Source of the DNA: Topomyia yanbarensis
Taxonomy: Eukaryota; Arthropoda; Insecta; Diptera; Culicidae
Assembly (NCBI RefSeq): GCF_030247195.1
Contig: NC_080670.1
Location: 92,856,661-92,920,660, forward strand
Length of the DNA: 64,000 bases
Direction: 5' to 3'
Below, in pieces: positions 1,703 through 42,867 of the stretch; within the stretch, counting starts at the first letter, position 1, and every line of letters starts with the position of its first letter. The position numbers and the translations under genes were made by a program. The notes under the pieces are model-generated. The model was given only the letters and a program-made list of their open reading frames with translations, did no database searches and was not told where the DNA came from.

Positions 1703-1794
1703 TTTAAATAAATCTTCAGATTAAAAAAAAGTGGGACCATTTAATTCGGTAATATAAATCAATAACATATTTTCACGCGTATTTTCCTTTATAT

Positions 1795-2030
1795 TGCAAC
1801 ACCATGGCTTGAACCCTGGAGTAAACGGTCCGTTGAACGAAAACAATGTTGAGGTAAAGCGAGCTCTTTTGGGAATGAAAAGGCAGTTAGCGACAAGCGA
1901 ACGATCACGATAGTCAGGCTCACCTATTATATCATTAAAAATATTATTAATTATGTTGAAATTATTAAAATTAAAATGAATTGTGCTAAACCAAAATATT
2001 GAACATTATTATCAGTGATTGAACATCACA
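1795..2030 (+). repeat. 5' LTR of the Ty3/gypsy element
   Basis: Begins TGCAACACC and ends GAACATCACA, so it has the TG...CA termini of an LTR. Compared with the 3' LTR it shows five substitutions, all in the first ~140 bp; the AT-rich 3' half is identical. Confidence 0.95.
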
Positions 2031-2033
2031 GCG

Positions 2034-2051
2034 TGGGGGCTCAACCGGGAT
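2034..2051 (+). other. Candidate tRNA primer-binding site
   Basis: TGGGGGCTCAACCGGGAT starts 3 nt after the end of the 5' LTR. It begins with TGG, as expected for the complement of a tRNA CCA 3' end. I did not identify the tRNA with confidence. Confidence 0.65.
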
Positions 2052-2403
2052 TGATACAATCTCCCAATGCCAAAAAAAGAACTAATAACCTCTTTTCCAA
2101 ATGGGCGGCAAAGTTGCGCGTCCCTGATGACCGAACAATTGTGTTCTCCAAAAGTGGAAAAAAAATATTTTAAAAACTATTTATGGACAATTGATATTGA
2201 TAAGGACATTAAATGGTGAAATACTGCTTATTTGCTAAGTTATACAAAACAAACAAAAACCCTAGTTATTCATTGGAAATAAATCTATTACAAGGCATGC
2301 AAAAGCCTTGAACAGGTGAGTAGCATTCCTATTGCATTAAAAAAGTCGTTTGGACCTACCGGGTCTTATTTTCTCCAGAATTATAACATTTACACGCCGA
2401 CGG

Positions 2404-4209: not shown

Positions 4210-6860
4210 CGGAGAGAAGTGTGGCTGACCATGAACGGTAAAGAAATTGTACTGCCGTTTTGTGTGGAAGATGACACCAAAAATTGTGGATCGGCACAAA
4301 TGTGTCGAATTGAAGTAGGAGAAGATAAAATAGTGAATATTAAAGACCCCATAGACGGTTCGCCTCTACATGGAGATTTCGTGCGAAGTGAAGAAGAGCA
4401 GACTAGACTTGATTTGCTCTTAAACGAGTTTTCGGACATTTTCTCGGACGTACCCGGCAGGACAACAGAATATGAACACGAAATAATAGTAACGAACGAT
4501 ACCGGATTCACTCAGAAACAATATCCGATCCCATACCGTTATGTCAGCAACATTCGTGATCAAATTAATAAAATGGAAAAATGGTGAATAATCTCCCGTG
4601 AGTCGACAGCGTATATCAATCCATAAGTGGCCACCATGAAGGGAAGTTCGTGTTTTCTTGGATGCTCGTCGTTTGAACGCGGTTATGGAAAAGGACAACG
4701 AGAAGCATCCGGAAGTACAACAACTAGTACAGAAGTTCAACGGATCTTGCATATTCTCCTTAATAGATCTCACTAGCTCCTACTGGCAGATACCAATTAA
4801 AGCTAGCCATCGGAAATCTACCGGTTTTCTTTTTGAAACCAGATCTTATGTATTAAACGTTCTTCCATTTGGATTATGCACGGCTGTCGCAAGTTTCTCA
4901 CGAGCAAAGGATATAATTTTTGGTCCGGAGGTTCTGGATTTAATCGAGAAATATTTGGATGACCTTCTCGTAAGATCCAGGTCCTTTGATGAGCATCTAG
5001 AGCATCTTCGGGTATTGTTCACACGTCTTAGGAATGCCGGTCTGACAATCAGTTCAGCGAAAAGTGAATTCTGCAAAACAAGACTCAAGTTTTTGGAACA
5101 CATATTTGGACAAAATGGAGTTGCAATCGATCCAGATAAAGTGTCTGCCATCCAGCAGTTTCCGGAGCCCTGCGATCAGCGGTCGTTGAAAAGCTTTCTG
5201 GGGATGGTTAGTTATGTTTCACGATTCACACCCTGGTATTCTGCTATTGCAAAACCGCTTTACACTCTCCTGCGTGCCAATGCTCCATGGAAGTGGTCAG
5301 TCGAAGAAAGAGTTTTGCGTGCAAACGGACAGTTTGTACCAAGGACTAGGTGCCATGCTCTTTCAATGGGACGACCAGAACGATCGATTGGTTATCGCCT
5401 ACGCCAGTCGTCTACTGCAATCAGCTGAACAAAACAACACTGCTACCGAATTAGAAGCATTGGCTGTGGTGTGGTCGCTGAACACTTGTTTTCCTGAAAA
5501 GGTGTCAGCTACTCAATGGACGTCTGACAAGATGGATTTTATTTCTCCAGCAGTTTAATTTCGACATACAATACTGTAGAGGGAAGGATAACGAGGTTGC
5601 GGATGCTCTGTCGCGCTACCCAGAAGGAAGCATAAATACGTCGTTGCGGCCATCGGACAGACAGTTTGTATTAGCCAGATTGTCGCCAGAGGAAAAAGAT
5701 TTGCGTCGACTAATGCGGCAATTGCCGGGCCAACAATTTGCGGACGAAAATTTGCGTTCCATCTACCAGATAGTTGACACTGGGGTACACTCCTTAGGAT
5801 CAAGAAAGTTTACGAAAATTGACGATTTGCTCTTCGTCAAAAATCATCGGGACACAGCGTGGAAAATAGTCATTCCGTGAACCATGGTTGGAGTAGCCAT
5901 ACGTTTCTATCATGACCAATCCGGTCACTATGGATTGCAAAAGACGTTTCATGCGATGAATAAAGTTTCCTATTGGAAAGGCATGCGAGCTGATGCCAAA
6001 GCTTACATACGAGCCTGTTTCATCTGTCAGCGTTCAAAATTACCGACATCGCGACTTCAGGGTACAAGGCGCAGTATAATTCTAGGTGGACCAAACGAAT
6101 TGTTATCGGTTGATTTATTTGGTCCGCTGCCTTCGGGACGGGCTGGGGTTCGTTATGTATTCATAATGATTGATGTGTTCACGAAGTACGTAACATTGGA
6201 TGCAGTGAAAAATCCTACGGCATGTGCGCTATGGGGAAAACTAGAAAAACGAATTCTGCAGCTCGGAAAACCAGCCACAGTTCTCAAGGTACTCAATTCT
6301 CGGCGAAATATTGGGCGAGGATGTTGAAGGCCAGTGATATCAAACTAGTATTCACATCGGTGCGACATCCACAAGCTAATCCGGTGGAGCGAACCATGAG
6401 AGAATTGTCCAGATTGTGCCGAGCGTATTGTCGAAGCAATCATAGGCTCTGGGTAACAAATTTGCAGCTGTTCAGTCGTTGGATCAACAGTGCCTGCCAC
6501 GAATCTACTGGCTCAACCCCGTACGAGTTACAATTTGGAAAATCGGGCAAGGATGCACTTCAGAGCCTTTTTAGTTTCCCGCCTTCGGACTGTACCTCAA
6601 TTGATTATGACCAGGTTCGAATTATATTACAAAGGAAAGCAGACAAACGGAATGATCGGGCCAAGAAACAAACAATCCGATTCAGCCCTGGGGATTTGGT
6701 GCTACTTAAAGCTAATCCGGTACCTTCCGAAGCCGATGCAATAGTAAGAAAGTTCATGGATGTCTACGAAGGACCATATGAGATAAGGGATGCTGTGCAG
6801 GACGACGCACAGTGGCGGGTCTTCAAACAAAAGTCGGACAAAACCTCAAATGTTACCTAA
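4210..6860 (+). pseudogene. pol: Ty3/gypsy pol: RT, RNase H and integrase (broken)
   Basis: The segments in order are a linker and RT N-terminus (4210-4587), RT fingers/palm (4603-5330, with SLIDLTSSYWQIPI and the catalytic KYLDDLL near 4950), RNase H (5300-5620, with TDSLYQGLGA, TELEALAVVW and ending VADALSR), the integrase zinc-binding domain (5900-6045, HYGLQKTFH...CFICQ) and the integrase core (SVDLFGPLPSG near 6105; later ANPVERTMREL carrying the conserved Glu). Lesions are a TGA at 4585-4587, frame changes near 4600-4660, 5300 and 6290, and a TGA at 5878-5880. At the 6290 break the second catalytic Asp of the integrase core is missing. The element could not replicate by itself. Confidence 0.88.
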
Positions 6861-7806
6861 TTTGGCTGAAAATCACAATTTAAGCTAATTTTGAGGTGCT
6901 GAGCTCATTTTTGATGTCAAAAGTCGTAAAATATTAAATGCATTTTTCCATACAGTGCCATTGAACCTTTCTTATAACTATGATCCCGTTTTCATGATAG
7001 ATTTTCCGTTACTGTTCACCAATGTCAGCAATATCATAAAAAATGAAGAATACTACTTTAAATCCATTGTATAACATATTGGTTTACTGTAGATTGCCTA
7101 ACTATTTTAAACAAAACACCATGCGCCTCCATATCAGTAACAAAGTTTCAAAATCTCCTTAAAACTTTTTGCGCACCTAGGCGCAGAACGAGACCATGAT
7201 ATTCGAAAAGTAGAGGTTATTTCCCATAGAATGTACACTATGTGACCGTTCCGAAATGATTCCGAAATTTGTACAGAATACATTAGTGAAAAAAGTATTT
7301 TTGATCTGACCACCTCAAACATATTTAAACTAAAAAGTCATAGTTCCAAGCAAATTTACCAAATGTACTTTATTCACTAACCAAGTTCTTTCGTTCCTCT
7401 ACACAATGAAACTAGTTGTGCTAAAATCGGACCAAAGTCAAAAGAGCAACATGCATTTGAAGTGAACAGAGCAATGGTGGTTTCGGAAATGAAAATCAAT
7501 AAAAAGTCCGGACTTTGCTACGTTTAAACTCATGTTAAAAATCGTGTTCTTATCCAATGATCATAAAATTTTGAATATACATCATTCAATATATGAGAAA
7601 TTTAGAAAAAATATAAAATATCAATATTTCAAAAATAAATTTTTGAGGTTTTGGCCAGCCTCCAGCCACTGTGCGACGTGTTCATCTTACAGCATAGTGA
7701 ATCCAAATAAGTGAGAGGAATGTTCCATATTAACCTATTGAAACCGTTTATTTAGAATTGGCAGCCGAAAACTTCGTCGAACAGTGCGTTTGCTGGAGCG
7801 GGGAGC
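6861..7806 (+). other. Non-coding 3' region of the Ty3 element with polypurine tract
   Basis: Between the integrase end and the 3' LTR there is about 950 bp with no supported frame, hence no env. The last bases before the LTR (GGAGCGGGGAG, 7795-7805) are purine-rich and positioned like a plus-strand primer tract. Confidence 0.6.
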
Positions 7807-8042
7807 TGTAACACCATGGCTTGAACCCTGAAGTAAACGGTCCGTTGAACGAAAACAATGTTGAGGTAAAGCGAGCACTTTTGGGAATGAAAAGGCAGTT
7901 AGCGACAAGCGAGCGACCACGATAGTCAGGCTCACCTATTATATCATTAAAAATATTATTAATTATGTTGAAATTATTAAAATTAAAATGAATTGTGCTA
8001 AACCAAAATATTGAACATTATTATCAGTGATTGAACATCACA
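7807..8042 (+). repeat. 3' LTR of the Ty3/gypsy element
   Basis: Begins TGTAACACC and ends GAACATCACA, followed at once by the ATAT target duplication (8043-8046). The next 8 bp duplication of the giant hAT-like element starts only 2 bp later, at 8049. Confidence 0.95.
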
Positions 8043-8337
8043 ATATCTATCGTATCCAGTGATGTACCAAATCGGGTTTTTTTTTTATTTTTGGGGAAAA
8101 ACCTAAGGTTAAAACGGTTTTTTCGCGGGAAGATTGAATTTTTTGCACTTTTTTTGATATTTTAGTAATTTAACATTAATGTTTTGCTATCCAAACATTT
8201 TATTTAATTTATGAGCATTATTGTCATAAAGTTTTGCATGTATATGAATTCTGAATGGTTTTCCTCGATTGAATCATTGTTATAGTGGTGATCCAACATT
8301 TCTTTGCAAATATTGTGGTTAAATAAGTGATAAACCT

Positions 8338-10567
8338 TGTAACAGTTGTACATTCCTAGTAAGTTAAGATTGTAAATATATTTATTTATTTATTTATAAT
8401 TAATTATTTAATATCAACAGACACAGTGTGGTCTTAATGATAATTTCTTAATCTATTTAAAAAGTCAAGTTGTAATCTGCTACGTGGAATGTGAAGATCG
8501 AACTCGGATGAAACTCTGTTGAAGGTCCGCTGCAAACCAATGATGGCACCGTTTACTCCATAGTTAGTCCGGCGAAGAGGTAATCGGAGGAATAAATTAT
8601 TAAATTAGGAATATTGAATTGGATATATAATAACTTATACATTCAATTCATCACCAAGCCTATAATTTACACCCACACAATCCGACAAATAGATCATCAA
8701 GTATCAGACATAGAATCCACATTTCAATTACTTCAATCAAAGCTAATTCTTCCATCCGCCAAAATTTAGGCAATGTGTCCTATCTTCGATAAGTCCAACC
8801 GTTTCTGTATCCGAAGATCACACTCGTTTCTTTCAAGCCCGAGTGAGATTGCGAGAATACTAATTCCAAGAAGAATCCTTGCACAAAAGTTGAGGGAAAG
8901 AGAAAGCTAGACCGCTTGCTTACGCCAGAACGAACTAGATGGTTGAATGATCTGAGATCCCGATTAATCCAGAAGAATTCTCAGAAAATGACGTACTTCC
9001 GGGTACTTTGAGACTCCCTTTCTTAATCTGAGGAAAACAGGCTCTAATCACTTTGTCCCAAATCGTTCAGCAGAGTGGAAGTGCCGCGATTTGTTTCCCG
9101 CGTGTAAACCAGTGTAGGTAAAGCCGTGACGTGGCTGATATTTCAGTAGGTTATAAATTTCTATTTCTTTTACTAGTTAGAAATTGTGCGTGTGCATAGA
9201 GAGCGTAAAAGTGCGAACCGATTCTGTGTGCGAATCGATAGGAGAAGGTAAATTGTGCTTAGAATTCTGACCACACACGTGGCTAACAACCCTTTCGACC
9301 GCCAGGCTTCATTTACTCCAAACAGGATCATTCGGTGCAAATCGCACGCAAATACGTTCATCGCCCGCTTGCCGCATTTCGCATCACTCTGCAACCGTCA
9401 GGACAAATTTACCCGGCGCACGTTTTTGTCGGAAGGGAGCCGATACGCCAACACATCGCTCCATCGGAAGTGCCCAAATCTTCCGGTGATCGCCTGAAGT
9501 CCACGTGCCGGTTCGAATCATCACTTTCGGCCGGTAATCGAAGCAATCGTCAATCAGCAACAGCTGGTCAGATTCGGCCGAGGCGATAGCAGTTCATCTG
9601 ATCGTCTCGTTGCCCCCGCGCACATCAGCAATAGCAGCATCATCGGCTTCACTCAACAGTAGCTGATTCGGTGAGTCCGTTCTAATAGTACTAGAAGTGA
9701 AGTGGCGTCCAGAGAAGACGACCCGAAGTGAAATTTAAGACCGTCCTCCGGTCAGTTTTCTGAGCCCCCGCTTTCAGACGGGCCACGCTCATGACGTGAT
9801 CACGAAGATCCATGTGCACATGTGACGGCGTTCTCGATAGCACCCTCGAGACGTACATGTTATAAAATGACACCCGGATGTACAAGCAATAGCCGCATCT
9901 CGCTTGCCGCTCCAGAGCCGATGGCTTGTTTGGGTCGAATTTAAAAAGCACAAATAACAGATAGATAGAGAAGAAAAACGCACACAATAGAGAGTTAGGC
10001 CTATATAGACAATGTACAGCAAATAGAATAAAGCATGCTTACCGTGAATACATGAAAAACCGAACTAGAATTAAAAAAAAAAACATCGCCTTGAATAATG
10101 TAACTATTTTAGTTTTGAGTAAATTTTTCATGTTAGTGTATTTGAGATAGAGTTTTTAGTTTACTGAAATATTTCCCACGTCACCCCGATTATGTTTCGT
10201 TCGCTTTTTCTCTGCCGCGTGGCAGATTTGAATTAGGTAGATTCTCTTCCACGTTGATAGCGCGATCTGGTGGCAAACATTACCCTGCCAGTGATGATAA
10301 GCTTTTTGGCTATGGGGAGTTTCGACTGTGGGATCTAGAAGGTGAGCTTCGGTTCTTGGGGAGTTTAGCCATCTAGGGTATTTGGACCTGTTCTGGGGTT
10401 TAGCTTGCGTGCCTAGCTGAACCGATCTGAATTCTTTCAAAGAAAGGATTCTTTTCTTGACTAGCATTCCTGCAGTCTCAACCGGGCATCTCAAACTTGG
10501 CGGTAGTCTCCGAAAGGAGTGGCGCTAAAACTACGCGCTTCCAAAAGATCGGTCAGCGACGGCTACA
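8338..10567 (+). repeat. IR1 left arm, LTR-like
   Basis: About 2 kb without the LINE insert. Around 9100-9680 it reads like a promoter plus 5' leader: a TATAAATT motif near 9153, then GC-rich leader sequence, then a donor-like GGTGAGTCCG near 9670. LTRs of ~2 kb are uncommon, but Ulysses/Osvaldo-type insect retrotransposons have long ones. LTR identity is inferred from ends and centre only. Confidence 0.45.
8383..8611 (-). mobile_element. 5'-truncated CR1/jockey-type LINE 3' end in the IR1 left arm
   Basis: Read on the minus strand this encodes the RT C-terminus (RRTNYGVNGAIIG...RSRLQLDFLNRLR), then a short 3' UTR and an (AAATA)n tail. The same C-terminal pattern closes the RT frame ending at 54555. 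The inverted partner arm lacks this sequence and reads straight across AATATATT..., so it is a clean insertion with a short AATATT-like duplication. Confidence 0.8.
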
Positions 10568-10605
10568 TTTTGGCGCCCAAAGTGGGCGCCAAAATGTAGC
10601 CGTCG
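10557..10605. repeat. Perfect 23-bp stem hairpin at the IR1 centre
   Basis: CGACGGCTACATTTTGGCGC... (10557-10579) pairs perfectly with 10583-10605 around a 3-nt AAG loop. It is the axis of IR1 and contains the two opposed primer-binding-site-like sequences. Confidence 0.9.
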
Positions 10606-12366
10606 ATCCCGCAGTCGAAACTCCCCATAGCCAAAAAGCTTATCCTCACTGGCAGGGTTAATGTTTGCCACCAGATCGCGCTAACAACGTGGAAGAGAAT
10701 CCTACCTAATTCAAATCTGCCACGCGGCAGAGAAAAAGCGGACGTAACATAATCGGAGTGACGTGGAAAACATTTCAGCAAACTAAAAATTCTGTTTCAA
10801 TTACACTAACACGAAACATTTATTCAAAAACAACATAATTCAATTTTCGGGACGATGTATTATCTATTCTAGTTTGGTTTCATGTGATTCACGGTAAGCA
10901 TGCTTTATTCTAATTGTACATTGTCTATCTACAGGCCTAACTCTCTATTGTGTGCGTTTTTCTTCTCTCTATCTGTTCTGTGTGCTTTTTTTTAATTTCG
11001 ACCCAACAGGCTAAGGGATCCGGAGCGGCAAGCGAGATGCGGCTATTACTTGTACACCCGGGTGTTTTTTTTATAACATGTGCGTCTCGAGGGTGCTATC
11101 GAGAACGCCGTCACATGTGCACATGGATCTTCGTGATCACGTCATGAGCGTGGCCCGTCTGAAAGCGGGGGCTCAGAAAACTGACCGGAGGACGGTCTTA
11201 AATTTCACTTCGGGTCGTCTTCTCTGGACGCCACTTCACTTCTAGTACTATTAGAACGGACTCACCGAATCAGCTACTGTTGAGTGAAGCCGATGATGCT
11301 GCTATTGCTGATGTGCGCGGGGGCAACGAGACGATCAGATGAACTGCTATCGCCTCGGCCGAATCTGACCAGCTGTTGCTGATTGACGATTGCTTCGATT
11401 ACCGGCCGAAAGTGATGATTCGAACCGGCACGTGGACTTTAGGCGATCACCGGAAGATTTGGGCACTTCCGATGGAGCGATGTGTTGGCGTATCGGCTCC
11501 CTTCCGACAAAAACGTGCGCCGTGTAAATTTGTCCTGACGGTTGCAGAGTGATGCGAAATGCGGCAAGCGGGCGATGAACGTATTTGCGTGCGATTTGCA
11601 CCGAATGATCCTGTTTGGAGTAAAGGAAGCCTGGCGGTCGAAAGGGTTGTTAGCCACGTGTGTGGTCAGAATTCTAAGCACAATTTACCTTCTCCTATCG
11701 ATTCGCACACAGAATCGGTTCGCACTTTTACGCTCTCTATGCACACGCACAATTTCTAACTAGTAAAAGAAATAGAAATTTATAACCTACTGAAATATCA
11801 GCCACGTCACGGCTTTACCTACACTGGTTTTCACGCGGGAAACAAATCGCGGCACTTCCACTCTGCTGAACGATTTGGGACAAAGTGATTAGAGCCTGTT
11901 TTCCTCAGATTAAGAAAGGGAGTCTCAAAGTACCCGGAAGTACGTCATTTTCTGAGAATTCTTCGGGATTAGTCGGGATCTCAGATCATTCAACCATCAA
12001 GTTCGTTCTGGCGTAAGCAAGCGGTCTAGCTTTCCCTTTCCCTCAACTTTTGGTGCAAGGATTCTTCTTGGAATTAGTATTCTCGCAATCTCACTCGGGC
12101 TTGAAAGAAACGAGTGTGATCTTCGGATACAGAAACGGTTGGACTTATCGAAGATAGGACACATTGCCTAAATTTTGGCGGATGGAAGAATTAGCTTTGA
12201 TTGAAGTAATTGAAATGTGGATTCTATGTCTGATACTTGATGATCTATTTGTCGGATTGTGTGGGTGTAAATTATAGGCTTAGTGATGAATTGAATGTAT
12301 AAGTTATTATATATCCAATTCAATATATTTACAATCTTAACTTACTAGGAATGTACAACTGTTACA
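10595..12366 (-). repeat. IR1 right arm, LTR-like (inverted copy)
   Basis: Reverse complement of the left arm, lacking the LINE insertion and the ~225-bp inner segment. It therefore preserves the empty LINE target site at about 12322-12335. Confidence 0.5.
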
Positions 12367-13619
12367 AACTTTTCAACACGTTTTGGGCTAAGTCAATTGC
12401 GTTTCTTACTGTGAATCCACCTAAACGTACTAAACATTTTTTCTGCTGTTGCTGATGTAGTTAATGCCGAAAGAATTCGGATTGCGATTTATCAGAGTTC
12501 CGATTACGGTTCATACTAATGAGTAAGCTGACCAACTGTGGGTTAGAAAAAATCCGTACACATTTCATCTCAAAATTGAAAACACAAAAGTTGACGAACT
12601 GAAATTTCTTGCCATGCAGGAAGGTTCGTAGAAACTATATGGGTTTCTGTAGAAAAGAAGATACTCCGATCGAAATAAACTTACGAAATTACAATAGACT
12701 GTTATGTTGCTTAGAACATTGGATTCAAAATGATTAGGTTTCGAATTTAAATATCCACGAGCATCCAACCCCGGAATTATGAAATTTGATTACGATTCAA
12801 ATGCAGAGACCAAATACCTGAAATGATTGATGATTTTTTTTTCAAATTTGAATCTTGTAATAAAGAGGATGTATTCACTTCAAATTCAAATGCTATACAA
12901 ATCGACAGATTACAAGTGAAATGTAAAAAGGGTATTTTGCGTTTCGAATTCATCTCATCAGTAAATGCCACCGTATTAGCACCGGTTAGACCCCAAGTCC
13001 GAAAAATCATAAGTGAAGTAGAAGAATCAAGCACAAAATCTCTGGTTTGCTAGTAAAAAAGTGCACGCGACTTGCTATGGTACATGGAAATCCTTTTTCG
13101 TAGCGGGACTCCATCATAGGTGGGTCTTCTTTCTTACATCTGGCCATTACAAATCACAGATGTGGATTCGTCCTCTTTGGCATTTTCATTCTAACTGAAA
13201 ACTCTGCCTTTTGATTTGGAGTTAATGCACACAGTTTCTGCGGTTTTGCAGTTGCCGTTATTACTTGAACAACTGTCACAAAGTTGGCAACCATTTGGGG
13301 ATCAGGCGGCAGTATTGAAGACTGTGCTATTGATTGTCGGAGATGAGTTTTTCTTAGCGACTGCTGTCTACGTTTTATAATAGTGAGCCGTTTCATCATA
13401 GAATGAGGATGTAGGAATCTGTCATTGATAACTGCAAAGCATGGTACTTTTTTGTGTTTTGTATTGTCGGATCAGGTAGGCAAGCCACAATCTTACCGCG
13501 TAATCACCATTGAAATATCTAGGAATAATTAGTTTTTTCTATGTATCCTTTGTAACCGATTCCACTTTTCTATACAGCTACACTTTTAAAGGCCGTATCG
13601 CAAGTTCGGACCCATTAGA

Positions 13620-13800
13620 AATCACCTTGGGTTGCTGCGGACCCCCACGGACAAACATCGACTTTGTATGCTATCAATGTATTACCTTCAGTTTGTTAGG
13701 AAACAAGACTTGAAATTTCAATTCAATTTTTCTTCGCGGACCCCCAGTAACGACTTCACGGCGCCCTAGGGGTCCGCGGACCTCAGGTTGAGAATCACTG
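13620..13800 (+). mobile_element. hAT-like terminus (CAGTGATTCTCAACC type), IR2 left arm
   Basis: The sequence ends GGTTGAGAATCACTG at 13800 and is preceded by GGGGTCCGCGGACC-type palindromic sequence, the form seen at the ends of many arthropod hAT elements. Its partner end was not found. The mirrored copy starts at 21837 in the right arm. Confidence 0.55.
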
Positions 13801-14431
13801 TTATAGATTGTTCTAGAAAATGATTTTATTTACCTGGAGCAATCTATCAAAAATTATCATTATTGGATACCTGATATGATGGCATTGGATAGAGGTGACT
13901 TTTGCAAGCCTAAGCTCTGAAACCTGTAAGTAAATATTCCAAAACTCGGGCTAATACGAAAAGATTTGAAGTTACGTTATTTGACCAGAGTTCCACTTTT
14001 GTTTTCCATATTCACACATCTCGACACTAAACGATCACTTCGGTAAGAACTGAAGTAACAGTTTTCTTTGTTCTTATAACTATAATTTTTTCGTTCGTTT
14101 CGTTGCTTCGAACTAGAGTAGAAAATATATTGGATACAGCGACTGCTGTTCAATTCGGCACTTCCAGATAGATGCTATAATACAGTAATTTCTCAAAGAT
14201 CTTCGATTCAGTTGAAACATTAGACATTTTACCAGCATGGGTTCAGAGAATTTTGCACAGCAATGCAAAGCATTTTGATTCGAGAGCAATATTTAAATGT
14301 CCCTGAGGATTTTTGCAGGAACCGTTTCAAAAAAAATGTTGCTCGAGATCTCTGTTTTGTACAGCAAAACACTCCGTGAAAAAATTGCAGCGAATAATCT
14401 ATTCTTCACAAAAAAGAATATAACTGTTTAA

Positions 14432-14950
14432 CCCTTTCATGCCCTAGTTTTTTTTAGTTCATGTGGGGTTTCAAAATTATTTTTCCTTGAAAACGGTAAA
14501 ATCAAGAAACACAAAAAGTCTTATTTCATAAAGTTAGGTGCTTCCCTTGTAGTGCTAGAAGCTGCTCAATTTTTACCTTCCAATGCTCAATACAATTCTC
14601 CTAGAATATTTACAATAGTTCAATTGCATGGAAAACGCAGCCAAAGACAGACTAAATTGGTAAGTTTTATCAGTTTTCAAAAATACTGCACCATTTCGAA
14701 GATACATGAAACATTCATTTTCCGTCATCAACGTAAACTGTCCCTGGCAGCACTGCTCCAGCAAAATCCAATTAGACTAATTGTAATAACTTCAGTTCTA
14801 GAGCTGATCCTTGTAACTGTTAATGCTCAAACGAAAGGCAATAGCCACATTTATTAGCCTTACCTCTTTTTGCGAGCATATCTTGCCTCAATCAAAAGTT
14901 ATAGCTGTTTAAAAACGTTGTGGTCCATAAACTACATGGGCATGAATGGG
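14432..14950. mobile_element. piggyBac-like TTAA MITE (IR2 left arm)
   Basis: Termini CCCTTTCATGCCC and GGGCATGAATGGG are inverted (12 of 13) and directly flanked by TTAA on both sides (14428-14431 and 14951-14954). TTAA target duplication is diagnostic of piggyBac-type transposition. The 519-bp interior has no transposase. Confidence 0.75.
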
Positions 14951-15538
14951 TTAAAAAGTTGTTAATGTTTCAAAAAATAAAAAAATAATATTAAAAACTA
15001 AAACTACAAAAACTTGTTATTTTTAAAACTTCTATTTTTTGCCAACAAAAGTCTGAAGAAAATGGAAACATATTGAATGTGGTTGCCTCGCGGAGAAATA
15101 ATTGGTAAAAATGTTTTTCTTGCAACAGCTGTAAACACTAAACATGCTTCAAAATTTGATAATAACTGGCAGACAAAAACATAATTTTATTGCAGAATAC
15201 GATTCTCATTGTCAATCAAAATGCTCGTAGCCAAAAATTTACAAAATCTGTAAGATTTCAAGATATTTTAAATTTTGTTTTCTTTCATTATTTTTCTTTC
15301 TTGTACTACTGGAACTGTAGTACGGAAGGGCTCCCCGTAAGAATCACTTATTACAATTGCAGACGAAACGGGAAATGTCACCCCCTAAAACACTGCTTAA
15401 GGTCTATTGCAACGTCAGTCGATCACGTGGGAATGAGCGCTTGTGTGCGCTTGAGACCGCGTTAATCGGATTAGAAGTGCTAGAGGGTTCACTAAATCAT
15501 TGGGGCGTTTTTGTGTTTGCGAAATCTTGGGCGTAGTT

Positions 15539-16250
15539 ACGCGTGGATGATCGCGATCGTCTTTGTGTATTATCGTGAAGGGCTCGAACGGTTGTATGTT
15601 AATGTATTTGATCGCGTGGGCGTTTGTTTGTCGCACGGACAATATGGCGCGTATGCTAGTGTGTAACTTCGTGTGTATAAGTTCGATTTTATAACCGTGT
15701 GTCCATTCGCGTGTGTTCTTTGATGATCGCGCGGACCGTGCATCTGCTACATAATTTACAGTGTATAGTTCAGATGCTAGAAGAGAGTTGTCTATCACTA
15801 TCAATTCTATCACTAGAGCTCCCAGTCATGTCGCCATGGAACGTGTTGTCTAGTGGATATGAGCGTCATTTTTTCTGATTAGCTGAACTGAAAGCATGAA
15901 CCTAGGCTGCTAGGGCCGAGAGAAGGAACTTCCAGACGTAACCAATCCATGCCCGCGAACACGGGCGTTTGTAGGTTCACTCTTGAGATTGCTTTTCTAA
16001 ATTTATAAGTGCTAAAACGTTCACTCAGTCACCGAGAAGGTATGCGTGGATGATCGCGAAGAGCTCGAACGTTTGTATGTTAACGTATTTGTCGCGTGTG
16101 CTAGCGTGTATGTAACTTCGTGTGTATAAATTCGATTTTATATCCGTGTAGCCATTCGCATATTTGCATGTAGTCTTGAAAAATCGCGCGCGGACCGTGA
16201 ATCCGATACTTTATTTGCAGTGTATAGTTGCGATGCTAGAAGAGAGTGAG
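15539..16250 (+). repeat. Direct duplication of a ~230-bp block within the IR2 left arm
   Basis: 15539-15806 and 16043-16250 share an ordered set of motifs (GCGTGGATGATCGCGA, GTAACTTCGTGTGTATAA, CGCGGACCGTG, GATGCTAGAAGAGAG) in the same orientation. The right arm carries the same pair (19340-19560 and 19820-20090), so this duplication came before the inverted one. Confidence 0.75.
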
Positions 16251-16622
16251 TTCTCCCATAACTCTAGAGTTCCCCTAGAGTAATTTTTCAGAAACCATGG
16301 AAAAAGAGGTAACTCCAAAAGAATTACTCTTCCATTCGTTCCAGCGTGATAATCTACGTAAAATGAAATCATCCCAATGACTGAAATAGAAGTAAAAAAT
16401 GGTTGCGCGACAACTTACAGCAGTAAATATGGATGGTTCTTGATCAGCTTCTGACCCGTTGATATACAACACAATTTCTATTATGTCATAATTTCATAAA
16501 AGCTCCTGAAACCGCGCAGAGTAAGCGCACAACATTATAGTCAAAGAAACTGCTTCTTTTCACAAGAAGGAATTGTTTACTGAATATAAAAAATACGTTT
16601 CCACGCATTTTGCACTTATGCT

Positions 16623-17625
16623 TAGTGGTCGCAGTACCGATCCTTTTTGGCGAAAACCGGTACTACGGTACTGAAGCCCTCAGTACCGGTAATACCGGTA
16701 CTCGAATATTTTTTTAAAAAAATCTAAAAAAGCTTCAAAGTGAAATTAATTGCTTAAGCTGATGGCCTTATTCTCAGATGATTGATTTGTGCTGACCAAA
16801 AAAACATGTTTATTGTTTTTAATTGCTTCGGAATGGCATAACTTATTTCAGCAGAAAATATTTTTCGTATGCGGCACCTTCTTTTATTTCGAAATCTGGG
16901 CCACTTTGAAATCAATAACTGCTAAGCGATGCGACTTTCGTCGTATTCAACAGATGGTAAATGTAAGGAACCCTGTTAACAACAGTAAATCAAAGCGAGA
17001 ATGGCAGTAAATCCGAGCAGATTACACACATTTCTTTTCTTGCTTTTCTGTAAACCTCGACGTTTATGTCGTTTGTCTACTATTCTCTAATGCATATCAA
17101 GGCTCTATGCTTTCCTGTAAACTATGGAGTTTTGCTGAATTTTCCGATCACCAATAATTACAAATCGCCCCATTAGAAGCAGTTCACCAAGTCTCAAATT
17201 GTTAGCTACTAAATAGCTGTTCGTTCTTTTATAGTAAAGGTTTAAGAGCAAACCAAATACAGACATGACTTAGACCATAGCCTTACTACGCGCCACCCAG
17301 TGAATAATGGACCCAATCATAATGTCGCTAATAAAAAAATCATAGCAAATTTTTACGTCTATTACGCTAGATGTGAATATTTTGAAATTTAGTACAAGAT
17401 CGTTAAAATTTAATTTGGACAAAATAGTGCAGGAATTTAAATATACCGTTCAGTACAACGGGAGCTAGTAATATTTAATATTATTTTGAAACAGGTCCCC
17501 CTAGAGTCTATATATTTTTCATAAAAAACTTTATGGTAATTTGTTCAGTACCGGTATTACGGTACCAAAAATGGGTCTGTATTCCCGGGATTTTCGGTAC
17601 CGGTATTACCGGTACCACAACCCTA
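16623..17625. mobile_element. 1.0-kb non-autonomous hAT element rich in CCGGTA motifs
   Basis: The left end TAGTGGTCGCAGTACCG and right end CCGGTACCACAACCCTA are roughly inverted. Both are flanked by a perfect 8-bp duplication CTTATGCT (16615-16622 and 17626-17633). Subterminal GTACCGGTAATACCGGTAC palindromes are typical of this arthropod hAT group. No transposase frame is present. The first ~110 bp belongs to the IR2 left arm; the rest lies in the IR2 spacer. Confidence 0.8.
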
Positions 17626-17633
17626 CTTATGCT

Positions 17634-18896
17634 TATCATGTTCCTTGTGTGTATCAAGCTGCGCGATCAATTTATCTGGCTGTAAATCCAACGTAAAATT
17701 AAATACTCTGTTGTACTTAACAGCGTCCTTTCTGGATCTAATGTTCTTCGAGTACGTTGAAATTTTCGGGTCAACCTTTCAAATAAAATAAAAGGAAAAA
17801 CCTATTAAGTTATGTAAATGGAAATTTGAAGGAGTTCCAGAATCTACTGCTGATTATAATTGTATTATGTCTTAGAACTACAGAATACATTCGAACTGCA
17901 GCGGTAATAATTTGGTTCTGAAAAAGATTAAAAATAGAAAATGTATAATCCGGATTATTTTGAGATACCTTCATAGAAGGCAAACTGAGTTGAACCAAAT
18001 GTGAATACCGAGTAATATATTTTTCATCGCGGAAATTAATCGGGTAAATTGTGTTTCGACTTAGATAGATCAACTTGGTGGCTGCTAGACACTGAATTTA
18101 AAAATTCCACCCAACTTGAAAGAACGGTTTAAACGACTAGTCGAGACGGATACATAGCTGTTCATTTTTTTCACTTATATTAGAAAAAATCTTAAACATT
18201 ACCTAGTCTCAAAGCTCATAAGAAAATTCACAAAAATCGATTTTTTTTTATCATTCTTGTGCACTGGTCTCCTTTGTCTAACAAAACTGCATTTTTGGAA
18301 CCTGGGAAACGAGTTTGCAACGTTATTTAGTTATTTTCCGAATTTTTGTTGTCCTGGGAGTACTTCCACTTCTACTGAGGTTGAAAATTCCGTACAAATT
18401 CCGGACAAATCCGTACAAGTATTTTTTCCAGACACACGACCAAAAATCCGTACTGTCCTCCCAAATTCCGTACAGTTGGTCAGCTTAGTCATTAGTATTC
18501 AGCGTCAAGTCTCTAATCCTTGGAAATTAGACGTAGCTGAAAGCCTGGAAATTTTCAAACATTCGTCTCCTTTCTTATTAAATCGAGACCAAGGTAACGG
18601 ATATTCATGGCTCTTCTTTTACCTACATGCAAAAAACGGTCAGCTTCATGCACCTACCCACCGAGCACAGCCTACCCGCTTCCCTAGATAAAACGACTTT
18701 ACAATCCCGTAATTTCCTATAGACTGATACAAACACTGAAGAAGATTACAAGTAGTAATCGAAATACCGGTATCTGTTAAATAGTGAAGTGCAAGTGCAT
18801 CTAACTATAAAAACATAGTGGTATTAAATGGAAGAAAATCTTTGAAACATTACGTACATTCCACTAAGACCTCCGTTCGCGTATATATTGTGAGCT
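17634..18896. other. IR2 spacer, no gene seen
   Basis: Unique sequence between the arms. A frame at 18257-18691 has no recognisable domain; it overlaps repeated CCGTACAAATTCCGG-like motifs (18385-18475) that resemble another hAT MITE terminus. Confidence 0.5.
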
Positions 18897-20667
18897 TTTT
18901 TAGATTTTTTTAAAAAAATATTCGAGTACCGGTATTACCGGTACTGAGGGCTTCAGTACCGTAACACCGGTTCTCGCCAAAAAGGATCGGTACTGCGAAC
19001 CCTAAGCATAAGTGCAAAATGCGTGGAAACGTATTTTTTATATTCAGTAAACAATTTCTTTTTGTGCAAAGAAGCAGCTGCTTTGACTATAATCTTACTC
19101 TGCGCACAACATAATAGTCAATAGTGTGTTGTATATCAACGGGTCAGAAACTGATCAAGAACCATCCATATCTACTGCTGTAAGTTGTCGCGCAACCATT
19201 TTTTACTTCTATTTCAGTTATTGGGATGATTTCATTTTACGTAGATTATCACGCTGGAACGATTGGAAGAGTAATTCTTTTGGAGTTACCTCTTTTTCCA
19301 TGGTTTCTGAAAAATTACTCTAGGGGAACTCTAGAGTTATGGGAGAACTCACTCTCTTCTAGCATCTTAACTATACACTGCAAATAAAGTATCAGATTCA
19401 CGTTCCGCGCGCGATTTTTCAAGACTACACGCAAATATGCGAATGGCTACACGGATATAAAATCGAATTTATACACACGAAGTTACATACACGCTAGCAC
19501 ACGCGACAAACACGTTAACATACAAACGATCGAGCTCTTCGCGATCATCCACGCATACCTTCTCCTGCGATCTTGCAAACATGATGACATCCCGGTGACT
19601 GAGTGAACGTTTTAGCACTTATAAATTTAGAAAAGCAATCTCAAGAGTGAACCTACAAACGCCCGTGTTCGCAGGCATGGATTGGTTACGTCCGGAAGTT
19701 CCTTCTCTCGACCCTAGCAGCCTAGGTTCGTGCTTTCAGTTCAGCTAATCAGAAAAATGACGCTCATATCCACTAGACAACACGTTCCATGGCGACATGA
19801 CTGGGAGCTCTAGTGATAGAATTGATAGTGATAGACAACTCTCTTCTAGCATCTGAACTATACACTGTAAATTATGTAGCAGATTCACGGTCCGCGCGAT
19901 CATCAAAGAACACACGCGAATGGACACACGGTTATAAAATCGAACTTATACACACGAAGTTACACACTAGCATACGCGCCATATTGTCCGCGCGACAAAC
20001 AAACGCCCACGCGATCAAATACATTAACATACAACCGTTCGAGCCCTTCACGATAATACACAAAGACGATCGCGATCATCCACGCGTAACTACGCCCAAG
20101 ATTTCGCAAACATAAAAACGCCCCAATGATTTAGTGAACCCTCTAGCACTTCTAATCCGATTAACGCGGTCTCAAGCGCACACAAGCGCTCATTCCCACG
20201 CGATCGACTGACTTTGCAATAGACCTTAAGCAGTGTTTTAGGGGGTGACATTTCCCTTTCGTCTGCAATTGTAATAAGTGATTCTTACGGGGAGCCCTTC
20301 CGTACTACAGTTCCAGTAGTACAAGAAAGAAAAATAATGAAAGAAAACAAAATTTAAAATATCTTGAAATCTTACAGATTTTGTAAATTTTTGGTTACGA
20401 GCATTTTGATTGACAATGAGAATCGTATTCTGCAATAAAATTATGTTTTTGTCTGCCAGTTATTATCAAATTTTGAAGCATGTTTACAGCTGTTGCAAGA
20501 AAAACATTTTTACCAATTATTTCTCCGCGATGCAACCACATTCAATATGTTTCCATTTTCTTCAGACTTTTGTTGGCAAAAAATAGAAGTTTTAAAAATA
20601 ACAAGTTTTTGTAGTTTTAGTTTTTAATATAATTTTTTTATTTTTTGAAACATTAACAACTTTTTAA

Positions 20668-21187
20668 CCCATTCATGCCCATGTAGTTTATGGACCACAA
20701 CGTTTTTAAACAGCTATAACTTTTGATTGAGGCAAGATATGCTCGCAAAAAGAAGTAAGGCTAATAAATGTGGCTATTGCCTTTCGTTTGAGCATTAACA
20801 GTTACAAGGATCAGCTCTAGAACTGAAGTTATTACAATTAGTCTAATTGGATTCTGCTGGAGCAGTGCTGCCAGGGACAGTTTACGTTGATGACGGAAAA
20901 TGAATTTTTCATGTATCTTCGTAATGGTGCAGTATTTTTGAAAACTGATAAAACTTACCAATTTAGTCTGTCTTTGGCTGCGTTTTCCATGCAATTGAAC
21001 TATTGTAAATATTCTAGGAGAATTGTATTGAGCATTGGAAGGTAAAAATTGAGCAGCTTCTAGCACTACAAGGGAAGCACCTAACTTTATGAAATAAGAC
21101 TTTTTGTGTTTCTTGATTTTACCGTTTTCAAGGAAAAATAATTTTGAAACCCCACATGAACTAAAAAAAAACTAGGGCATGAAAGGG
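20668..21187. mobile_element. piggyBac-like TTAA MITE (IR2 right arm copy)
   Basis: Inverted duplicate of the MITE at 14432-14950, flanked by TTAA at 20664-20667 and 21188-21191. Occurrence at the mirrored position shows that it predates formation of IR2. Confidence 0.75.
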
Positions 21188-21836
21188 TTAAACAGTTATA
21201 TTCTTTTTTGTGAAGAATAGATTATTCGCTGCAATTTTTTCACGGAGTGTTTTGCTGTACAAAACAGAGATCTCGAGCAACATTTTTTTTGAAACGGTTC
21301 CTGCAAAAATCCTCAGGGACATTTAAATATTGCTCTCGAATCAAAATGCTTTGCATTGCTGTGCAAAATTCTCTGAACCCATGCTGGTAAAATGTCTAAT
21401 GTTTCAACTGAATCGAAGATCTTTGAGAAATTACTGTATTATAGCATCTATCTGGAAGTGCCGAATTGAACAGCAGTCGCTGTATCCAATATATTTTCTA
21501 CTTTAGTTCGAATCAACGAAACGATCGAAAAAGTTATCTTATATCCGGCTTGCATTGTCTCAAGAACAAAGAAAACTGTTACTTCAGTTCTTACCGAAGT
21601 GATCGTTTAGTGTCGAGATGTGTGAATATGGAAAAAAAAAGTGGAGCTCTGGTCAAATAACGTAACTTCAAATCTTTTCGTATTAGCCCGAGTTTTGGAA
21701 TATTTACTTACAGGTTTCAGAGCTTAGGCTTGCAAAAGTCACCTCTATCCAATGCCATCATATCAGGTATCCAATAATGATAATTTTTGATAGATTGCTC
21801 CAGGTAAATAAAATCATTTTCTAGAACAATCTATAA

Positions 21837-22020
21837 CAGTGATTCTCAACCTGAGGTCCGCGGACCCCTAGGGCGCCGTGAAGTCGTTGCTGGGGGTCCG
21901 CGAAGAAAAATTGAATTGAAATTTCAAGTCTTGTTTCTTAACAAACTGAAGGTAATACATTGATAGCATACAAAGTCGATGTTTGTCCGTGGGGGTCCGC
22001 AGCAACCCAGGGTGATTTCT
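21837..22020 (-). mobile_element. hAT-like terminus, IR2 right arm copy
   Basis: Starts CAGTGATTCTCAACCTGAGG at 21837; inverted copy of 13620-13800. The adjacent outside bases ATCTATAA are shared between the arms, so the terminus was in place before the inverted duplication. Confidence 0.55.
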
Positions 22021-23481
22021 AATGGGTCCGAACTTGCGATACGGCCTTTAAAAGTGTAGCTGTATAGAAAAGTGGAATCGGTTACAAAGGATACATAGAA
22101 AAAACTAATTATTCCTAGATATTTCAATGGTGATTACGCGGTAAAATTGCGGCTTGCCTACTTGATCCGACAATACAAAACACAAAACAGTACCATGCTT
22201 TGCAGTTATCAATGACAGATTCCTACATCCTCATTCTATGATGAAACGGCTCACTATCATAAACCGTAGACAGCAGTCGCTAAGAAAAACTCATCTCCGA
22301 CAATCAATAGCACAGTCTTCAATACTGTCGCCTGATCCCCAAATGGTTGCCAACTTTGTGACAGTTGTTCAAGTAATAACGGCAACTGCAAAACCGCAGA
22401 AACTGTGTGCATTAACTCCAAATCAAAAGGCAGAGTTTTCAGTTAGAATGAAAATGCCAAAGAGGACGAATCCACATCTGTGATTTGTAATGGCCAGATG
22501 TAAGAAAGAAGACCCACCTATGATGGAGTCCCGCTACGAAAAAGGATTTCCATGTACCATAGCAAGTCGCATGCACTTTTTTACTAGCAAACCAGAGATT
22601 TTGTGCTTGATTCTTCTACTTCACTTATGATTTTTCGGACTTGGGGTCTAACCGGTGCTAATACGGTGGCATTTACTGATGAGATGAATTCGAAACGCAA
22701 AATACCCTTTTTTACATTTCACTTGTAATCTGTCGATTTGTATAGCATTTGAATTTGAAGTGAATACATACTCTTTATTCCAAGATTCAAATTTGAAAAA
22801 AAAAAATCATCAAGCATTTCAGGTATTTGGTCTCTGCATTTGAATCGTAATCAAATTTCATAATTCCGGGGTTGGATGCTAGTGGATATTTAAATTCGAA
22901 ACCTAATCATTTTGAATCCAATGTTCTAAGCAACATAACAGTCTATTGTAATTTCGTAAGTTTATGTCGATCGGAGTATCTTCTTTTCTACAGAAACCCA
23001 TATAGTTTCTACGAACCTTCCTGCATGGCAAGAAATTTCAGTTCGTCAACTTTTGTGTTTTCAATTTTGAGATGAAATGTGTACGGATTTTTCCTAACCC
23101 ACAGTTGGTCAGCTTACTAATGACTATTGTCAAAGCCACTCGCTTTCTGCATATTACTCACTTTTACTTTTCACCGAACTAAATAGGTAGTTTCTAAATT
23201 TTGTGTGAATACCTACCTCATTTCGCTAAAAGTATAGCAACCCCTAAAATGAGTAACAAGCAGAATAAAAGTAGTTTGGGCATCACACGATCATTCTAAT
23301 TTTCACTAGTCAGAGTAACAATGACTATTGTTCCCAGTATTTTATGCAACAAGTTGGAATATTGAATGGACCGAAATTAAAGTCGCAGGCACAAAAAATG
23401 CTTCGTAAAACCCGGTTAAAACCCAAAAATAAAAACCCGGGAAGATGGATTTTTTCACAGTGATACATCACTGATCGTATC

Positions 23482-24452
23482 ACACATCAAAGAAAGTAAA
23501 TAATGAAAGAAAATTAATTTTTCTAGGGGATAGATCCAAATGAATAATAATCGAATATGAATCGTAAAATACAGTATTTTATGAATTTTCTTATTTACAC
23601 TCGTGGTTAACAAATTGAATCAGAATGTTAACAGCTTACAAATTGGCTCCGCAAATATCCTAAGCTAAGATTAAATATCAGATTTTAAATATGTACATTG
23701 TTCCAATAAGAATAAACTCACATAAAACATCTAAATGCAAAATATTTTGAAATAGATCGCGAACGCAACGGTGATCAATATATTTGTTTCGATTATTGGC
23801 ATATGCTTCAATAGTTCTGAACCAACGGTACATATATCTACTCTACTTATCTACTATTCCAAAATATACCTTTCCAAAATATACCTTGAACCGCGAATCA
23901 GAAAATTATACGACATATATTTGGAATAATAACCCGTCAGATTAAAATATTATTTAATTCTAGAAGTAATAAAACAGATATAAGATTCTGTCAGTTACTG
24001 TAATGATTATAAATTTGTTAAGGGGAATTACGTATAAATGGCACAAATAGTTACGGTGTGTTCGTTAAAATATATTGCTAGAATGCTTAAAACTCTTATT
24101 TCTGTTTTATTTTTTTATTATTTTATTCATAAAATCGTAGAAATATTGCAAGCAAATAAAATCGTTCCAATCTGCACTGATGCATTACAGAAATACATCT
24201 ATATTGTCTGTCTGCCACAGTGCAAACAAAAATATGAAATATAATACTTGTGAATATAAAATGATCATTCTGTCAAAGTTTAATTTTTTGTTTGACCTTT
24301 GTTTACTTTTTATTTAAGCCTCGTTGAAAAACGTGTTCAATTTCAATTCGCAGAGTGTGATCTAACCTTTATTTATAATTGATATTTATTCCAAACATGT
24401 GAAAATTCGCTTGAAGCGAATATAAATATTCTCTCCACGTCGACAGGTATCG
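23482..24452. other. AT-rich DNA, nothing recognised
   Basis: No supported frame or repeat structure. The stretch just inside the hAT end (23119-23460) holds two copies of AATGACTATTGT (23119 and 23318), possibly a further small nested insertion. Confidence 0.4.
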
Positions 24453-24722
24453 TCTTGAATTGGAATGACATTCACAATTCATTTTGATTTAAAATTGAAA
24501 TATTTCAACCTATTTTTAATCAAAGCTTAAAATAACTATCATGGCACCAGTTACAACCGATGGTTCAACCACCTCAAACAAATCGTGTTGAATTGGAATG
24601 ACATTCACAATTCATTTTGATTTAAAATTGAAATATTTCAATCAATTTTTTAATCAAAGTTTAAAATAGCTATCATGGCACCAGTTACAACCGATGGTTC
24701 AACTATCTCAAACTCGACGAAT
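24453..24722 (+). repeat. Two-copy tandem duplication, period ~133 bp
   Basis: GAATTGGAATGACATTCAC occurs at 24457 and again at 24590, and the following ~120 bp (through ATGGCACCAGTTACAACC and GATGGTTCAAC) matches with a few substitutions. No coding potential is seen. Confidence 0.85.
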
Positions 24723-25723
24723 GCTTTCAATGAGAATGAATGAAACATGCGTATGTAAACTAATTAATTTTGCTTTTTACATTGAATATTATGTCACTCC
24801 AAAATGCTGTACATTATCGGTCAACTATTAAATATCCACGTTAAAGTTCTAAGTTCAGAAACATATCGGCTACAAGTCGACAAAATTGTTCTCACACGCT
24901 ATGGAACGAGACATATGACGAAGAAAAGCTATTTTACTGCAAGAAAATATCGGGATGAAAGAAATACCAAGTTGTCTAATTTACTCATTGTCTTTAACTT
25001 GAATTTGTTGTTTTTTTAACATTGTCGTGTATCGCAGATCAGAACGCAGTCATATAAATGAAAGCATCATTAAAGCTTACCAAATATTTTAGGCCGATTT
25101 AAAAGTTAGTCCGGTTTAAAAACAGTTAGTGCGCCTTTGAGCTTACGGCTATAATAGAAAAAATATGCAGCCATGTACCTACGCCGTCATCATTCCGAAA
25201 CCATAAACGTTTGAAAAACACTGACTAGAATTACCGTCTTATTTTTGCATTCTCGGCATTCTGATAGGCCCGACAATGACTTAATTTTTAAAAATAGGAC
25301 GCTCACTGTTTTGCTGCCCAAAAGAACTACAAATAACTGCCACTAGGAATCGGACAATAGGGGAACTATTCTTGCTTTTTTCTATGTGACTCATCAACAG
25401 GTGTATATCCGAATCAAAACAGCTATGTTCATACCACCGTTGCCAGTGACAATACTAATCTCGTGTTCTGTTGTAGTAGTCAAAAGGCCTTTGTACATTA
25501 AAAATCGTTCCACTTGTAACCACATTTTGTTTGAGTCCTCAAGCTATTGTTATTCTACGCACGCATTCACAAGGTAGAACTGTCGGAAATAAGGACAAAC
25601 GAATGTTGGTGCACAGTGTCTGAGGTTTACGATGTACGGGATTTTGGATCGTTTTATTGTGCACTTCCATACTGCAGTACAGGATTGCACCCCTACTTGA
25701 GTTTATTTTAGGCATGCGACGGT

Positions 25724-42246: not shown

Positions 42247-42321
42247 TAGGGGAAAGAGGGTAACAGTGGAACTATGAAAACAATACGTTTTCATAGTTCC
42301 ACTGTTACCCTCTTTCCCCTA
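42247..42321. repeat. Perfect 35-bp stem hairpin
   Basis: 42247-42281 (TAGGGGAAAGAGGGTAACAG...) pairs without mismatch with 42287-42321 around the loop AATAC. It is probably a minimal TA-flanked MITE; its TAGGGG start resembles the element at 62525. Confidence 0.92.
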
Positions 42322-42800: not shown

Positions 42801-42867
42801 ATTTGTTCATCTCATTGTCTAAAATGTTACTATGTTATGACTATTTTAGACAACGAGATGAACAAAT
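42801..42867. repeat. 25-bp stem hairpin
   Basis: 42801-42825 pairs with 42843-42867 at 24 of 25 positions around a 17-nt loop. It lies in the centre of the piggyBac-like foldback. Confidence 0.85.

Follow-up and report, generated by a model that had tools for sequence, protein, structure and literature searches.

Transposons of the hAT superfamily have termini of the type CAGNG/TAGNG, and hAT miniature inverted-repeat transposable elements (MITEs) are recognized by CAGTG ends, 8-bp target duplications and many short copies. The element described here occupies positions 8057-23473 of a 64,000-nucleotide stretch of contig NC_080670.1 from the mosquito Topomyia yanbarensis (this whole stretch is hereafter called the window) and shares these three features. 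It differs from hAT MITEs in that the present copy, which is not itself large, is interrupted by two larger insertions, the palindromes IR1 (4.0 kb) and IR2 (10.6 kb). Long terminal repeat (LTR) retrotransposons and solo LTRs are the second group to be compared: IR1 has their TG...CA LTRs and 4-bp duplications, and a solo LTR of its own family (L055) is present in the genome. However, the LTRs of IR1 face each other and are joined at their primer-binding sites (PBS), both outer ends are U3 (unique 3') ends, there is no internal region, and the parts downstream of U3 are of two types.

A study of Pack-TIR (terminal inverted repeat) elements proposed template switching in terminal-repeat elements, hAT being the commonest superfamily (208/370), and reported none in insect reference genomes and one family, Ssk-FB4, in fly populations (PMC8277862). 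The likeness to the present locus lies in template switching; here, it is the element's own sequence that would have been copied back as a palindrome. In Anopheles gambiae, six of 32 MITE-like clusters are palindromic, all 32 clusters measuring 430-1678 nt (PMC3212995). These are also mosquito repeats, whereas the palindromes of 4.0 and 10.6 kb described here are of another origin. Galileo has 7- or 8-bp duplications and long inverted repeats (PMC4168063), and in Galileo/Foldback elements the element itself ends in these long repeats. The ends of the outer hAT element measure 13 bp instead, and the palindromes are internal insertions that begin 281 bp from its left end and 357 bp from its right end; owing to these short outer ends and internal palindromes, an identity with Foldback/Galileo was ruled out. 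Finally, alternative transposition of Ac in maize gives duplicated DNA, 19,341 bp of it in one case, enclosed by hAT ends that have 8-bp duplications (PMC4270019). These composites carry re-replicated flanking DNA, whereas IR2 carries an inverted element, an inverted 11-bp copy of its flank and one base that may mark a template switch.

By means of short relatives from the same genome, this puzzling giant element could be dissected. The joint reading that we favor, with a probability of about 0.8, is a nest of separate accidents, in which a short hAT copy received IR1, an integrated product of reverse transcription, and IR2, a palindrome made in place by fold-back copying. The 15.4-kb unit is a nest, ordinary in a transposon-rich genome, and not a giant hAT or a mobile unit; it requires no function and documents a series of accidents. 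The insertion of a short non-autonomous hAT copy took place at ATCGTATC, IR1 entered this copy at GTGATAA-AACT-TTTC with a 4-bp duplication, and an element called X, with ends TAAGCTGACCAAC, inserted into it at CTAATGAC. Two routes would thereby lead from ordinary transposons to large palindromes, namely the formation of an LTR dimer in the course of reverse transcription, and a fold-back copying between the inverted ends of a transposon; the enzymatic steps of both are proposed below. Since the nest itself is ordinary, the interest of the locus lies in the LTR-dimer palindromes.

The outer copy is delimited by the terminus CAGTGATGTAYCA at 8057 and 23473, abutted on both sides by the exact 8-bp sequence ATCGTATC (8049-8056 and 23474-23481, both on the plus strand), a target duplication of the hAT type. 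No further copy of ATCGTATC exists in the window; its count alone, two matches, corresponds to chance expectation. The termini, which have CAGTG at each end, read CAGTGATGTACCA at 8057-8069 on the plus strand and CAGTGATGTATCA at 23461-23473 on the minus strand, agree at 12 of 13 bp and span 15,417 bp from end to end. When the window was scanned for 8-bp direct repeats abutting 13-bp inverted repeats with at most one mismatch, 30 pairs were obtained, of which the 29 besides the hAT pair are trivial because their 8-mer is self-complementary and they are located within inverted-repeat arms. The same scan of 60 dinucleotide shuffles gave a mean of 0.033 pairs, with a hit in 2/60 and a [CT]AN[TG]G start in none. 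Throughout the genome (1.17 Gb, 1,044 contigs), CAGTGATGTAYCA had 387 matches, including the window's two, against 17 for its reversed control. The first-pass annotation of this locus had described inverted CAGTGATGTAyCA-type termini 15,417 bp apart with a perfect 8-bp duplication and had assigned them to hAT. The former are found as described, and the latter agrees with the genome counts as well as with the 8-bp duplications of the short copies.

Forty regions around terminus places were fetched, drawn from 100 listed of the 387, and the copies compared are paralogues from the same genome. The first set comprised 20 regions, three picked for facing termini 1.3-1.7 kb apart and 17 taken freely from the list. 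Nine of them contained ten copies with both termini (1,024-1,682 bp), a count which excludes the 11 regions without two recognizable ends. Exact 8-bp duplications flank seven of the ten copies and are absent in L009 and in the tandem pair of L023. The IR1 site is uninterrupted in 9/10 copies and the IR2 site in 8/10, the remainder being deleted across the site. In the short copies, window base 8338 joins 12366 and 12522 joins 23115, the overlaps corresponding to the target duplications of IR1 and IR2, and the two insertions add exactly 4 and 8 bp to the hAT, respectively. The second set consisted of 20 consecutive not-yet-fetched places on a single contig, C1, with the window's own two excluded. 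A probe spanning the IR1 site aligned nearly end to end in 18/20 of these regions. The IR2-site probe did so in 13/20; in four others its alignment was split by a diverged gap, and three gave no alignment. Right ends were present in 12 regions, nine with an exact 8-bp duplication and three with a match at 7/8, and the remaining eight had no right end inside the fetched 1.7 kb. Overall, exact 8-bp duplications flank 16 of the 22 two-ended copies, and the family members are 1.0-1.7 kb long. No IR1 arm was present in any of the 40 regions, and IR2-arm sequence was present in ten of them.

From the short-copy comparison, the hAT sequence of the window is divided into a left, a middle and a right part, all on the plus strand. 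The left part (8057-8337) begins with CAGTGATGTACCA and matches most of the ten two-ended short copies at 86-88% (two of them at 75% and 84%). The middle part (12367-12523) forms the linker between the palindromes and, in the short copies, is joined to the left and right parts without a break. The right part (23117-23473), which ends in TGATACATCACTG, is without several hundred bp that are present in short family members between window positions 23414 and 23407. No match at a curated cut-off, and no transposase domain, was found among 17 open reading frames (ORFs; 7 + 10) of the element scanned against Pfam, out of 42 ORFs of at least 62 aa listed for 8057-18892, so that the previously claimed lack of a transposase holds for 17 of the 42. 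A protein-database search with two ORFs of the element gave no relative, and the viral contigs scanned contained no relatives. An Rfam scan of 7000-25000 gave no match, and a transfer RNA (tRNA) scan of the 64-kb window gave none. What had been taken for a single non-coding unit is more precisely a short hAT copy with two separate insertions and a fragment resembling the tail of a long interspersed nuclear element (LINE). The two palindromes reported in the same annotation were recovered, with arm identities of 95.6% for IR1 and 96.2% for IR2.

IR2 extends from 12524 to 23116, with arms at 12513-16734 and 18893-23127, and lies between CTAATGAG (12516-12523) and CTAATGAC (23117-23124) on the plus strand. 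Its empty site in short copies reads TTCATA-CTAATGAC-GAATG. A full inverted copy of X, collinear with the copies of X on contigs C1 and C2, occupies 12524-18487 on the minus strand. Its far end at 18487 is adjoined by the 11-bp GTCATTAGTAT (18488-18498, minus strand), an inverted copy of the IR2 target flank ATACTAATGAC that is trapped within the palindrome. There follow a 394-bp filler of unassigned source (18499-18892) and a second, truncated copy of X (18893-23116, plus strand). The full copy carries an element Z of about 1 kb (16623-17625, read by eye) with ends TAGTGG.../...CAACCCTA and the 8-bp duplication CTTATGCT, and the second copy begins inside Z. The parent X is an ordinary terminal-repeat element of about 5.5 kb and not palindromic: it measures 5,554 bp on C1 with GTATAGAC on both sides and 5,833 bp on C2 with ATTATACT on both sides, each an exact 8-bp duplication, and both copies contain a hAT relative. 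The 8-bp duplications of X, including CTAATGAG/CTAATGAC at IR2, are of the hAT type. The fifth base of its terminus TAAGC is C, as opposed to the G of the hAT terminus type YARNG.

Because it encloses its own target flank in inverted form, IR2 was probably made by inverted duplication in place. After the insertion of X, replication may have folded back at its inverted ends and copied X backwards, past the far end and 11 bp into the flank, before jumping through the 394-bp filler and rejoining X to give the palindrome. The odd G in CTAATGAG is identical to the base that precedes TAAGC at the opposite end of X. Alternatively, IR2 could have arrived as a ready-made palindromic transposon with two right ends of X, or could result from alternative transposition of the hAT type between sister chromatids, with subsequent breakage and joining. 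Indeed, both outer ends of IR2 are exact right ends of X adjoining CTAATGAS, and composite insertions flanked by 8-bp duplications are known products of alternative Ac transposition (PMC4270019). However, with GTCATTAGTAT inside, a ready-made palindrome would need to share an 11-bp flank with its new target by chance, and alternative transposition, which explains the inverted flank, predicts C and not G before the left end. Beside fold-back copying of X in place, we consider these origins unlikely.

Two sets of minor observations concern the edge of IR2 and the surroundings of the hAT relatives. Adjoining the IR2 edge, AATGACTATTGT occurs at 23119-23130 and 23320-23331, 201 bp apart. Most hAT family copies have GACGAATGTC at the first of these places, and the first AATGACTATTGT could be the result of conversion by the second. 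A diverged hAT copy, which has GCGTA as its left flank, was found at seven places (L017, L025, L028, L035, L043, L045 and L046); it is located inside X in the three that were viewed closely (L017, L025 and L028) and beside X-like sequence in three more. In this case, amplification of a nested composite as a whole does seem to have occurred. L023 contains a tandem of two short hAT copies at a distance of 1,731 bp, which share their flanks and lack an 8-bp duplication; this is probably a segmental duplication. L028 also contains, at its positions 7951-8668, a tandem array of near-identical copies with a spacing of 52 bp.

IR1 (8338-12366) has outer ends TGTAACAG...CTGTTACA and arms at 8611-10335 and 10605-12326. 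Where short copies read GTGATAA-AACT-TTTC, the window reads GTGATAA-ACCT-[IR1]-AACT-TTTC, i.e., four added bases and one change. The plus-strand target duplication thus consists of ACCT (AACT with one change) at 8334-8337 and AACT at 12367-12370. When 984 bases of the arm were used as query, at least 46 genome matches were obtained, two of them being IR1's own arms. The 35 near-full matches include seven direct pairs 9.9-10.9 kb apart and one pair 19 kb apart, an arrangement characteristic of LTRs; among the listed matches, no inverted pair other than IR1 lies within 40 kb. The relatives start with TGTAACAG, end with GGCTACA, are about 1,997 bp long and have 4-bp duplications (ACCG, GTAT and AGAT), and those having an internal region show the PBS-like TTTTGGCGCCCAAC directly after the LTR. 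IR1 is therefore composed of two such LTRs facing each other. The left LTR (8338-10567, plus strand) is 1,997 bp long without the LINE-like fragment, which is the family length seen in the solo LTR L055. The right LTR (10595-12366, minus strand) misses about 232 bp. Their joint, TGGCGCCCA-AAG-TGGGCGCCA at 10571-10591, sets a PBS against an inverted PBS. With its TG...CA LTRs, short target duplication and PBS adjoining the LTR, IR1 resembles an LTR retrotransposon. However, its LTRs are inverted and PBS-joined where direct LTRs around an internal region would be expected, and both of its outer ends are U3 starts, which is never so in an ordinary LTR insertion.

The LINE-tail-like insertion (233 bp, 8378-8610, minus strand) has a terminal ATTT repeat and corresponds to a gap in the arm alignment. 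It sits in the left LTR and not in the right one, has copies at 93.7% in L012 and L013, and would have entered IR1 later. A lower conservation of the outermost IR1 arm turned out to be an alignment artefact around this fragment, the actual agreement being 41/41. That IR1 lacks a target duplication was rejected, short copies and LTR relatives showing 4 bp, and the short-copy comparison ruled out that IR1 or IR2 are extended hAT ends.

The two LTRs of IR1 are 99.2% identical over 8611-9863 and 88.7% identical over 9864-10240. Relative L053 is separated from L055 and L058 by 81 sites. At these sites, the left LTR is of the L055/L058 type in 75 cases. The right LTR has the L055/L058 type at the first 50 sites, changes to the L053 type for 23 sites and returns to the L055/L058 type for four, with four gaps, so that its U3 is of one type and its downstream part of another. 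Because the change occurs directly after TTATAAAA, at about 9860, the switch would be near the border between U3 and R (repeat). During reverse transcription, R-U5 (U5, unique 5') is copied first from the 5' end of the RNA and then joined to U3 from the 3' end. On a simple reading, the same U3 combined with a different R-U5 would fit two co-packaged RNAs of different types. IR1 probably records an integrated accident of reverse transcription, being an aberrant product of an LTR retrotransposon. In such an accident, two plus-strand strong-stop DNAs from two co-packaged RNAs would be joined at their tRNA-copied PBS ends, either by one 3' end folding onto the other and priming on it, or by end joining. 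The resulting dimer would carry a U3 integration end on each side, and could be inserted by integrase.

Motifs resembling the PBS joint of IR1 are present elsewhere in the genome. The IR1 joint motif with longer LTR ends occurs at one further place, and a looser core, TGGCGCCCN{0,20}GGGCGCCA, at eight loci against one for the reversed control; all seven core loci other than IR1 were fetched and compared. L065, which was extended to give L067, forms a palindrome of 3.6 kb ending in TGTAGCG/CGCTACA, in which the outer arms are identical at 1350/1350 positions and the inner part at 80-88%. Because its LTR does not match that of IR1, L067 belongs to a separate LTR family, and with its arrangement it is a second case of IR1's build, so that this genome contains at least one further example. 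L061 is a 236-bp palindrome at 96.6% and L066 a 70-bp palindrome at 97%. L060 is partial, at 75%, its centre being common with L067 at 93%, the arms of L063 and L064 are scarcely longer than the core, and L062 is armless. The core TGGCGCCCAACGTGGGGC followed by GCCA, together a 22-mer, was found in L061, L062, L065 and L066, and on the other strand in L063. Its first 18 bases equal a putative PBS for tRNA-Lys. The bases beyond these 18 are the product expected of a 3' end folded on GCCC, and a fold of the core with RNA energies gave exactly that 4-bp stem.

These features lead to a tentative proposal, to which we give somewhat less than even odds, that LTR retrotransposons of this genome repeatedly make integration-competent LTR dimers. 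The 18-nt tRNA copy would fold back (GGGC on GCCC), and the folded strand would prime on itself or on the sister strand from the second co-packaged RNA, leading to U3-R-U5-PBS/PBS-U5-R-U3 palindromes. If this LTR route is true, genome sequences would allow strand transfer and RNA co-packaging to be read, and heterozygous packaging and failed second strand transfer would have left a fossil record in such palindromes, which would also be a source of large genomic palindromes. One origin of hairpin loci, with the potential to supply small-RNA pathways or to cause chromosome breakage, would thereby be named. In a limited search of openly licensed literature on large palindromic hATs and palindromic LTRs, which is not proof of novelty, no description of PBS-joined LTR pairs was found.

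Several observations weigh against the origins proposed for the palindromes. The LTR-type assignment of IR1 is based on three relatives, and a further one, L056, is mixed for the two types, so that the L053 and L055/L058 types are not yet clean subfamilies. The copies of the IR1 target duplication agree at 3/4 positions, and arm-to-arm gene conversion could also have levelled the U3 parts. Compared with the 22-mer of other core loci, the IR1 joint has one substitution and one missing base, and its tRNA origin is thus unproven. L067 has no target duplication (GTTA vs ATTT), which argues against integrase there. Long or near-perfect arms are seen only in IR1, L065/L067, L061 and L066 among the eight core loci, and several of these loci are not independent, since L060 shares the L067 centre and L063 and L064 scarcely exceed the core. 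Besides, the 22-mer alone does not prove a dimer, since L062 has it without arms. Concerning IR2, the two copies of its duplication agree at 7/8 positions, and the G of the left copy could be a plain mutation.

IR1 might instead have been formed in the chromosome, where fold-back replication or recombination would have turned an inserted ordinary LTR element into an inverted LTR pair, the outer arms being evened out by gene conversion. Such a process would account for an arm difference of 0.8% outside and 11.3% inside, fold-back seemingly produced IR2, and the lack of a target duplication in L067 points in the same direction. On the other hand, the outer ends of IR1 are exact U3 starts adjoining a duplication, the joint is at the PBS and not at a random position, a sharp switch separates two types in the inner parts, and L067 has the same build with an identity of 1350/1350 outside. 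A chromosomal origin therefore seems rather improbable next to the integration of a reverse-transcribed LTR dimer.

The first-pass annotation had left a choice between a large composite hAT that arrived with both palindromes as one 15.4-kb unit and a small hAT that hosted nested palindromes. The former would agree with the intact outer termini and the perfect 8-bp duplication. It is unsupported, however, because the short family copies run straight across the palindrome sites unless deleted there, paralogous copies thus keeping both termini and showing clean empty sites in place of IR1 and IR2, which is the refuting outcome that the first-pass annotation had named. In addition, a separate duplication flanks each palindrome within the hAT, and the genome contains the left IR1/hAT junction a single time, so that even one hop after assembly seems unlikely; the arrival of one unit is thus very improbable. 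A macro-transposon was likewise ruled out as far as the examined copies tell, the 40 regions containing no second copy with the load. The latter option was correct as to the small hAT, but the palindromes are not derived from it, IR1 being an LTR product and IR2 coming from X. Large palindromes are a known artefact of folded long reads, but the chance that those of the window arose in this way during assembly is negligible, since the arms are told apart by substitutions and indels, by the LINE-like fragment present on one side and by the deletion of about 232 bp, and each palindrome has its own target duplication.

The window as a whole is transposon-dense. An LTR retrotransposon at 1791-8046, with LTRs at 1795-2030 and 7807-8042 (236 bp, 97.9%), has a probable ATAT duplication and terminates six bases before the hAT duplication. 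The best named relatives of a retrotransposon protein in the window are labelled Brugia timori, Culex quinquefasciatus and Malaya genurostris, and the Brugia timori label presumably reflects host DNA. A long 9-bp minisatellite of the ATGAATCAA type, open in several frames, lies at 38537-39398. At 40797-44363, an element bounded by TTAA, with ends TTAACCTTCCCT[AG]GGTGTT, is piggyBac-like by its TTAA. This element contains a third large palindrome, with arms at 40824-41701 and 43308-44183 (97%) and two short hairpins in the spacer.

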